A stretch of 61,839 nt of DNA from Actinomycetota bacterium (GTDB taxonomy: Bacteria; Actinomycetota; Actinomycetes; Actinomycetales; Microbacteriaceae): NCBI GenBank assembly GCA_020161315.1, contig JAIUOH010000017.1, positions 1-61,839 of the forward strand, written 5' to 3'. Below are positions 12,847 to 14,557 of this stretch, piece by piece; positions within the stretch are counted from its first letter, which is position 1, and every line of letters starts with the position of its first letter. The position numbers and the translations under genes were made by a program. The notes under the pieces are model-generated. The model had not been told where the DNA came from. It did not search any database and saw nothing but the letters and a program-made list of their open reading frames with translations.

Positions 12847-13488
12847 TCAGAGTACGCGCAGCGCGTCGGTTATGTCGCGTTCGCGGCGCGACATTGCCTG
12901 AAGCACCGCGCGATCACCATTGCGTTCTCGCGCGGCAGCGAAGAGCAGCTCAGTAGCGGCGGTGATTGCTTCGCTTGGCGCCTCGAAACTGATGCCCAGG
13001 CTGAGAGAAAGGTCTTCGATGTGCACCGCAATCTCGACAAGCCGCGTGCGCAGGTAGTCGTCAAGCAGCAACTCTTCGCCGGGGCAATGGGCCACCGCGA
13101 CCCGTCTTTCGGTGGGCTCCGCCGGTATACGAGACCGTAGTTCGGTGAGTGTCGAGCGCGTCACCTCGACCAAGGCCTCCCAGCCCTGTGCTGCGGTTTC
13201 TCTGCTGCGCTGCTCGACGCCCTGATTCAGGGCAGAAGCCCGTGAAGCGGTACCTTCGAGGCGAGCGTAGTAGCTCGCGGCGGTCACCAAATAGCCTTCG
13301 CCGGTGACCCTGCCATCGAGAAACCACTTCACCTGCAGCACACTTCTGGCGAGGTGCGCCGCGAGCGAGCCGACGCTCATTCCTTCGAGCGCAGAGGCCT
13401 CGTGCCACAGCTCGGCGGTGCGATCATGTTCGATGAGGGCAAGTGTCGACTCTGCGGCGGTGAGGTACACGTCACGAATGGAACTCAT
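12847..13488 (-). CDS. DinB-like / maleylpyruvate isomerase N-terminal domain protein
   Basis: The 213-residue protein fits the MDMPI_N/DinB four-helix-bundle family, whose best-known members are mycothiol-dependent. Recognisable parts are the first helix YLTAAESTLALIEH, MSVGSLAAHLARSVLQV (family metal-site His) and VEIAVHIEDLSLSLGI (second His, followed by Asp). The function of most actinobacterial members is unknown; some catalyse mycothiol-dependent isomerisation or dehalogenation. The ATG at 13488 has GAGAAG upstream and is overlapped by the end of a 17-codon leader frame (13472-13525). Confidence 0.78.
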   Translation of the reverse strand: MSSIRDVYLTAAESTLALIEHDRTAELWHEASALEGMSVGSLAAHLARSVLQVKWFLDGRVTGEGYLVTAASYYARLEGTASRASALNQGVEQRSRETAAQGWEALVEVTRSTLTELRSRIPAEPTERRVAVAHCPGEELLLDDYLRTRLVEIAVHIEDLSLSLGISFEAPSEAITAATELLFAAARERNGDRAVLQAMSRRERDITDALRVL

Positions 13489-13561: not shown

Positions 13562-13593
13562 TTGACACTGCCCCTCAGGTCAGGGTTTAGCCT
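13562..13593 (+). promoter_or_regulatory. MerR-type promoter with 20-bp spacer
   Basis: TTGACA (13562-13567) and TAGCCT (13588-13593) are separated by 20 bp instead of the usual 17. The spacer contains CCCT-N6-AGGG dyad symmetry (CCCTCAGGTCAGGG). MerR-family activators act at overlong 19-20-bp spacers with a dyad operator, so autoregulation by the downstream gene is likely. The ATG is seven bases after the -10 box. Confidence 0.65.
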
Positions 13594-13600
13594 GGTCGGC

Positions 13601-14557
13601 ATGAACATTGGTGAGGTGGCGCGACGCAGTGGAGCTTCGGTGAAAGCGGTTCGCTACTACGAACAATTGGGGTTGTTGACGCCCGCGCGCGGCACGAACG
13701 GGTATCGCGAATATGACGAAACACAGCTTCGTGTGCTTCAAGAGATACGTGAGTTGGCGGCGTGCGGCATTGCCCCGAGCCGTGCCCACGCGTTTGTGGC
13801 CTGTCTAGATCTTGGGCACGAACACGGCGATGACTGCGTATCTTCGCTCGCGGTCTACCGAAAGCATATTTCAGAGCTGGATCACACCATCGACACCCTG
13901 ATCGCTCGGCGAAACCTGCTTCAAGCGAGACTCAGCGCTGGTGCGGAGCGTGGGTTTTTGGCGGCGGCCGGTGCTGATCATCATGCGGTTGAGCATGCTC
14001 TGCTGCCTGAGGGGCTTCCGGCCCCTGAAGATGACGGGGCCGCGACGCATCTTCTTGGCCTGAGGCTGCCTGCCTTGCGCCTGCCGGTAACAGGTGGGGG
14101 CGAGCTATCGTTTGAGTCCATGAACGCCGGAACGACCGTGCTCTATCTCTACCCGCTGACGGGTCGGCCTGATGCCGATCTGCCTGAGGGGTGGGAGTCG
14201 ATCCCGGGTGCGCGGGGTTGCACCGCCGAGGCGTGTGACTTTAGAGATCACTATGGAGAGTTACGCGAGGCGGGTGCAGATCGCGTATTTGGTCTATCTG
14301 GGCAGTCGAGGACCTATCAGATGGAGGTGGCCCGGCGCCTGAGGCTGCCGTTCCAAATGATTTCTGATGAGGGCATGCTGTTGGGCGCAGCCTTGAGCCT
14401 GCCTACGTTCACCGCACCGGGGCACGAACAACTGTATTCGCGGCTTACCCTGATTGTCGTAGACGGGGTCATCGACCACGTGTTCTACCCGATTTTTCCG
14501 CCGAACACGCACGCTCAGCAAGTGTTGCACTGGTTGCGGGCACGAAAGCAGACATGA
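13601..14557 (+). CDS. MerR regulator fused to a peroxiredoxin domain
   Basis: The 318-residue protein starts with a MerR winged helix (residues 1-70, MNIGEVARRSGASVKAVRYY) and a dimerisation helix (about 80-115). After a linker comes a redoxin domain (about 150-315). GARGCTAEACDF places Cys207 and Cys212 five residues apart, the spacing of the PrxQ/BCP 2-Cys pair, and ISDEGML, LPTF and FYPIFPPNTHAQQVL follow as in stand-alone redoxins of this type. Cys55, Cys68 and Cys79 lie in the MerR half. The design suggests a transcription factor that senses peroxide or thiol state through its own peroxidatic cysteine. The start at 13601 follows the promoter and the MerR N-terminus. Confidence 0.88.
   Translation: MNIGEVARRSGASVKAVRYYEQLGLLTPARGTNGYREYDETQLRVLQEIRELAACGIAPSRAHAFVACLDLGHEHGDDCVSSLAVYRKHISELDHTIDTLIARRNLLQARLSAGAERGFLAAAGADHHAVEHALLPEGLPAPEDDGAATHLLGLRLPALRLPVTGGGELSFESMNAGTTVLYLYPLTGRPDADLPEGWESIPGARGCTAEACDFRDHYGELREAGADRVFGLSGQSRTYQMEVARRLRLPFQMISDEGMLLGAALSLPTFTAPGHEQLYSRLTLIVVDGVIDHVFYPIFPPNTHAQQVLHWLRARKQT

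Follow-up and report, generated by a model that had tools for sequence, protein, structure and literature searches.

The window, a stretch of 61,839 nucleotides of actinomycete DNA, contains on its forward strand an open reading frame (13601–14557) in which a transcription regulator of the MerR family runs on into a peroxiredoxin. This raises the question of what such a protein would sense, with which of its two halves it would do so, and which genes it would control.

Domain structure of the fusion protein

The frame extends from the ATG at 13601 to the stop codon at 14557 and encodes 318 residues, according to the reading-frame listing and its translation. The amino-terminal part is a MerR winged helix-turn-helix (residues 1–57, positions 13601–13771), covered by the Pfam models PF00376 and PF13411, the former with an E-value of 5.4e-14 at residues 2–38. 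Redoxin and AhpC-TSA models match at residues 155–304, with an E-value of 3e-8 for PF08534 (Redoxin), and all these matches lie above the curated cut-offs. The proposal of the first-pass annotation that a MerR regulator and a redoxin are encoded in one frame is thus borne out by the two domains that Pfam finds in a single protein, and its coordinates and start codon agree with our analysis of reading frame and promoter. A longer frame given by the ORF finder, beginning with a TTG at 13562, was rejected, as this TTG is part of the -35 box of the promoter.

In the AlphaFold2 model, calculated from a 76-row alignment (mean pLDDT 92.3, pTM 0.67), the MerR head is followed by one long helix, the predicted dimerisation helix (residues 80–124, positions 13838–13972). 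The protein thus has the winged helix-turn-helix (from Pfam) and the long dimerisation helix (from the model) that characterise the MerR family. After a weak stretch at residues 126–130, within a linker delimited by sequence comparison and from the model (residues 125–147, positions 13973–14041), the chain continues as a peroxiredoxin domain with a PrxQ/BCP-like fold (about residues 148–317/318, positions 14042–14551). Foldseek and VIA-align, with rows covering about residues 148–318, place this part with PrxQ/BCP and other peroxiredoxins. The MerR half matches the structures of TipA (PDB entry 2vz4, E-value 9e-5) and of SoxR (PDB entry 2zhg, E-value 1.6e-8). SoxR had earlier been set apart as having a different fold, which is wrong for this comparison, SoxR being itself a member of the MerR family.

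Five cysteines are present, at residues 55, 68, 79, 207 and 212. From the alignment and the AlphaFold2 model, Cys207 (codon at 14219–14221), the first residue of helix 207–216, is predicted to be the peroxidatic cysteine, and Cys212 (codon at 14234–14236) the resolving one; the first-pass annotation had located this pair correctly. Their C-x4-C spacing is that of PrxQ/BCP, and the closest solved sequences, as found with a profile of unfused peroxiredoxin relatives, are BcpB of M. tuberculosis (PDB entry 5epf) and a Burkholderia enzyme (PDB entry 5enu). The usual active-site motif of peroxiredoxins is PxxxT/SxxC. This spacing is absent from the fusion, in which the residue at position -3 is Ala204 and that at -7 is Ser200, although Pro185 and Thr187 might serve instead. 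Compared with the PrxQ/BCP structures (PDB entries 5enu, 5epf and 3drn), the domain thus has an alanine at the usual threonine position, about 15 extra residues inserted before the first cysteine, Cys207, and a regulator joined to it. As the motif is not matched, the domain is termed PrxQ-like here, rather than PrxQ. The missing spacing and the insert also mean that peroxidase activity, expected by analogy with the peroxiredoxin family, is not certain; given the alanine in place of the usual threonine, and the insert, it may be a slow or a specialised enzyme. In most of the free peroxiredoxin relatives (L014, L015, L113–L119 and L141–L152) the first cysteine is preceded by an insert and a PGARGC motif is found, and similar free proteins, annotated as peroxiredoxin, are present on haloarchaeal and Agrobacterium plasmids.

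Distribution and integrity of the fusion

Relatives were taken from samples of 60 genomes, of 54 genomes of the window's genus, of 398 of its family and of 394 of its class, from a further 392 genomes of one genus (probably Streptomyces, judging from named plasmid kin), and from a sample of named genomes, of which the best 80 of 422 relatives were used. The first set consists of 34 loci with both domains, from which the duplicates L105 and L106 had been dropped beforehand; 32 of these have a single frame that runs through both domains with no stop codon, and in the remaining two, L025 and L153, the frame is broken. The second set consists of 29 loci, 27 of them new among the 30 loci of the 392-genome sample and two from plasmids, all 29 in one frame. 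Among the matches listed there are at least 61 distinct intact fusions, all in actinomycetes, and these 61 proteins all differ from one another. Since a single uninterrupted frame covers both domains in 32 of 34 and in 29 of 29 loci, the fusion is, judging from these sequences, more than chance or a local accident.

Fifteen of the 54 genomes of the window's genus contain the fusion. In the 392-genome sample, 40 genomes match at an E-value of 1e-60, and loci were obtained from 30 of these; one of the other ten is G690, whose architecture was seen through the class sample (as L138). Intact fusions were found, among other named hosts, in Microbacterium azadirachtae, Mycobacterium aquaticum, Nocardia acidivorans, Bailinhaonella and Streptomyces. 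The six plasmid records with a query coverage of 80% or more are annotated after one half alone, three as 'redoxin family protein' and three as 'MerR family transcriptional regulator', and the architecture is therefore hidden. A literature search, weak on subscription papers, revealed no MerR-peroxiredoxin fusion in titles or abstract openings.

When the labels fused and solo are mapped onto the MerR tree, with 46 of the 96 solo rows included, at least four changes are needed, and the labels fused and free require six changes on the peroxiredoxin tree. A single origin of the fusion is unsupported by either tree, and these changes make losses or repeated fusions possible; L112 and L138 may represent a separate fusion event. 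The window copy has lost Pro64 and Arg178, which the remaining 31 fusions in the alignment all retain, and, as it also has no strong internal start, it may be diverging. The linkers of L011, L013 and L006 are extended by short in-frame repeats (GAEAVP-like, GDTPVPPA-like and STHQK-like). Adjoining the fusion promoter in the window is a divergent MDMPI_N (mycothiol-type) gene on the reverse strand (12847–13488); as a conserved partner it was rejected, with no match at an E-value of 1e-3 in the other loci compared, most of which have flanks of about 1.5 kb.

Promoter and operator

Directly upstream of the gene lies a MerR-type promoter and operator (13562–13593, forward strand), made up of a -35 box TTGACA (13562–13567), a 20-bp spacer with an imperfect dyad (CCCTCAGGTCAGGG) and a -10 box TAGCCT (13588–13593). 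Seven nucleotides separate the -10 box from the ATG, and a leaderless mRNA is therefore possible. The dyad of the window copy matches at 7 of 12 positions, and it is perfect in L005 or L136, where it reads ACCCTGCCCC...GGGGCAGGGT. A spacer of 19–20 bp is described as the hallmark of MerR-controlled promoters (PMC9909328), and a spacer of this length containing a dyad is what is found at 13562–13593. When spacers of 16–21 bp were allowed, the pattern TTGACN-N20-TANNNT was found upstream of all 32 intact fusions of the first set, the spacer being N20 in 31 of them and N21 in L011. In the second set, where spacers of 19–21 bp were allowed, the operator is present with a 20-bp spacer upstream of 28 of the 29 fusions; in the one exception, L194, the dyad is there and the -10 box is altered.

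In the window's own genome, the operator pattern occurs once, exactly, at 13562–13593. With up to three mismatches, it is present in 14 of the 15 genomes of the genus that carry the fusion, in every case directly upstream of it (in G035 it is also read on the other strand at the same place); the remaining genome, G001, carries L011, whose 21-bp spacer cannot fit the pattern. Among the 39 fusion-less genomes of the genus only one has matches, namely two copies of a repeat in G067, with three mismatches and unlike sequence. As the operator is found in the 54 genomes only at fusion promoters, this repeat excepted, the fusion gene is probably the sole target of its own regulator.

Conservation of the cysteines and the probable sensing half

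In the alignment of the 32 first-set fusions, Cys68, Cys79, Cys207 and Cys212 are kept without exception, while Cys55 is present in the window copy only. A motif search of the second set gave the Cys68/Cys79 pair in 29 of 29 fusions and the peroxiredoxin motif in 28 of 29; L188, which does not fit the motif, still has both peroxiredoxin cysteines, in a GASGC...C context. The four cysteines are thus present in all 61 distinct intact fusions. The first-pass annotation had named a local fusion with non-conserved cysteines as the outcome that would count against it, and the relatives show instead that the fusion is conserved, and with it the Cys207/Cys212 pair.

The other pair belongs to the MerR half, with Cys68 encoded at 13802–13804 and Cys79, located by the alignment and the AlphaFold2 model just ahead of the long helix, at 13835–13837. 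In the alignment of unfused MerR relatives, both are present in 96 of 96 proteins (91 distinct), while the free peroxiredoxin relatives have Cys207 in 29 of 29 cases and Cys212 in 28 of 29. Being invariant with or without a peroxiredoxin, the Cys68/Cys79 pair is independent of that domain.

The unfused relatives are also informative through their neighbours. A same-strand thioredoxin-like frame with a WCxxC motif lies within 1500 nucleotides of the MerR start in 87 of the 96 solo loci (82 of the 91 distinct), and a narrower version of the motif, used in a first pass, was found for 64 of 75; the nine loci lacking the motif downstream are L094, L120–L125, L127 and L130. This neighbourhood, a matter of motif evidence rather than of a domain search, would tie the MerR family to thiol redox. 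None of the 96 solo MerRs runs in frame into the thioredoxin-motif gene; in the loci compared, peroxiredoxin, unlike thioredoxin, is found fused to such MerRs. The solo MerR proteins are about 40–55% identical to the MerR half of the fusion and share with it the invariant cysteine pair and mostly the N20 promoter layout, but their downstream gene is separate and in most of them the operator half-sites differ. By title or abstract opening, the literature search gave no recognisable paper on cysteine-pair MerR genes before thioredoxin genes.

Such short MerRs with Cys68 and Cys79, placed before a thioredoxin-motif gene, make up most of L026–L100, L128–L133 and L154–L161, from many actinomycetes. 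The solo MerRs L120–L125 and L127, with no thioredoxin motif after them, are nested in the fusion clade; these, and L163, are perhaps fusions that lost their enzyme. In L163, which is the place of L121 with a wider region, the list of reading frames contains no recognisable thioredoxin or peroxiredoxin. The window's own genome has six PF00085 (thioredoxin) matches.

Given a pair that is invariant with or without the peroxiredoxin, and partners that are thioredoxin-like or peroxiredoxin-like, oxidation of Cys68/Cys79 is the most likely signal according to the sequences, and this pair a likelier switch than that of the peroxiredoxin. SoxR and NmlR/AdhR are the reported redox-responsive MerR proteins, the iron-sulphur cluster of SoxR being held by a carboxy-terminal loop (PMC9909328). 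They have the MerR fold in common with the fusion. The loop of SoxR contains four cysteines, which are absent from the fusions, where only C68, C79, C207 and C212 are conserved; the SoxR model scores 42.6 bits on the fusion, against a cut-off of 116.9. Neither SoxR nor NmlR/AdhR is known to carry a peroxiredoxin.

A different signal for the same pair would be a metal ion, bound by Cys68 and Cys79, or an aldehyde or quinone reacting with them as in NmlR, with the peroxiredoxin as mere output. The curated models that score best with the MerR half are indeed those of CueR, SoxR, NmlR and CadR/PbrR, though all are far below their cut-offs, and a metal signal is made possible by the alignment of Cys79 with the CadR cysteine at the start of the long helix. 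Two histidines (His73 and His75) lie between the two cysteines and are common in the aligned fusions, but they are not fixed. The metal-sensing proteins CueR, ZntR and CadR have metal-binding cysteines in a carboxy-terminal loop, whereas the fusions have no conserved cysteine between residues 79 and 207; without any further conserved cysteine, there is no such loop. With thioredoxin or peroxiredoxin as the recurring partner genes, a metal or electrophile sensor is considered unlikely.

In the first-pass annotation, the peroxiredoxin itself was the sensor: peroxide would oxidise Cys207 and Cys212, and a change of shape would reach the MerR half by way of the linker. The conservation of the fusion and of both its peroxiredoxin cysteines in 61 intact cases is consistent with this, as is the long MerR helix, which in the AlphaFold2 model points towards the peroxiredoxin domain. 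A peroxiredoxin required for sensing is, however, not supported, since the MerR half owns an invariant cysteine pair that the 96 relatives devoid of a peroxiredoxin also have. The linkers differ widely in length and composition, some being repetitive, and therefore fit a loose tether better than a rigid coupling, and 28 of the 61 fusions are apparently able to make a free peroxiredoxin as well. Sensing by the peroxiredoxin is thus regarded as decidedly improbable.

Internal start codons in the linker

Many of the linkers read ...AAGGAG-N6-ATG-ACC-GAC-TAC..., that is, a ribosome binding site followed by the start of a free peroxiredoxin. A good internal start was defined as a linker start codon with a Shine-Dalgarno sequence of at least five nucleotides, and this is present in 28 of the 61 fusions (13 of 32 in the first set and 15 of 29 in the second). 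Over both sets, 30 of 113 start codons in the linker have a good Shine-Dalgarno sequence, compared with 14 of 626 elsewhere in the genes. In the first set, 14 of 63 linker starts have one, compared with 11 of the 361 in-frame starts that lie outside the linker of these genes (p=8e-7). The corresponding figures for the second set are 16 of 50 and 3 of 265 (p=1e-11, likewise with an in-frame control); these p-values are rough, because related sequences are not independent. None of the 27 out-of-frame linker starts of the first set has a good Shine-Dalgarno sequence; together with the in-frame controls of both sets, this led to the rejection of chance matches as the explanation. The linker starts of the 28 fusions thus seem to predict a second product, a free peroxiredoxin, as in TipAL/TipAS.

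When weaker sites, picked by hand, are included, 17 of the 32 first-set fusions have a linker start. On the fusion tree, its presence or absence requires at least eight changes, a value reached or undercut in 26 of 500 shuffles; with so little clustering, it appears to have been gained or lost often, and in the window's genus copies that have the second start are found alongside copies that lack it. Several of the fusions without a linker start have repetitive linkers rich in alanine and proline. Fifteen of the 32, including the window copy, lack an internal start at the expected place, and in these the fused form is apparently the main peroxiredoxin product; in the window, the sole candidate is a weak one, an in-frame TTG at codon 120 (13958–13960, forward strand) with a four-nucleotide GGAG upstream.

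The good internal starts and the scattered distribution of the linker start would also suit a functionless fusion, in which a stop codon between neighbouring genes was lost, with the free peroxiredoxin as the working product and the fused protein tolerated. This is very unlikely given the 15 copies without such a start, the absence of any thioredoxin fusion among the 96 solo MerRs of this kind, and the loci examined, which include no intact adjacent pair of separate MerR and peroxiredoxin genes, L025 and L153 being frame-broken.

Proposed mechanism and comparison with TipA

Our preferred reading, with a probability of roughly 0.55, is that the fusion is a self-contained, TipA-like, self-regulated and redox-switched peroxidase gene. 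What is read from sequence is the fusion itself, the conservation of its cysteines, the arrangement of the promoter, the single operator site per genome within the genus and the over-representation of internal starts; from these we infer the signal, the distortion of the DNA, the activity of the enzyme and the use of the internal start. By analogy with the MerR family, a dimer of the MerR half would bind its own promoter at the overlong spacer and keep it nearly shut. Oxidation or another modification of Cys68 and Cys79 would then make the dimer twist the DNA, allowing RNA polymerase to start. The output would be more fusion protein, whose PrxQ-like domain, as in other peroxiredoxins, would reduce peroxides through Cys207 and Cys212 and be recycled by thioredoxin or a similar reductant, removal of the oxidant ending the signal. 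In many relatives, not clearly in the window copy, the linker start would add free peroxiredoxin to the fused sensor.

A variant of this scheme is a relay within one chain, in which the peroxiredoxin is oxidised first and passes the oxidation on to its own Cys68/Cys79, a transfer from peroxidase to regulator that otherwise usually takes place between two proteins. In relatives with the linker start, the free peroxiredoxin would compete for peroxide and so set the threshold. This relay is considered doubtful.

TipA of Streptomyces lividans, also of the MerR family, is described as a single autoregulated gene with two start codons, the products of which together act as drug sensor, activator and neutraliser (PMC7762955). 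Like TipAL/TipAS, the fusion combines an amino-terminal MerR part with a carboxy-terminal effector domain in one gene, behind its own MerR-type promoter, and in many of its relatives two starts are predicted to yield a long regulator and a short effector. The effector is a peroxiredoxin where TipA has the antibiotic-binding TipAS domain; that domain (PF07739) is not among the Pfam matches of the fusion at an E-value of 0.001, Redoxin being found in its place. The fusion is therefore not a TipA, though built like one. It also differs in its predicted switch, the cysteine pair in the MerR half, and in the internal start, which is weak or missing in the window copy.

If the preferred reading is correct, the gene would be a minimal one-gene redox circuit, the antioxidant counterpart of TipA, and it would add to SoxR and NmlR a further kind of redox-responsive MerR protein, based on a cysteine pair. 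Were the relay true, one gene would be sensor, switch and remedy, and itself the sole target. The fusion also points to a wider family of cysteine-pair MerR proteins, encoded before thioredoxin genes in actinomycetes, and the copies with and without an internal start in one genus would be a natural experiment on the tethering of an enzyme to its own regulator.
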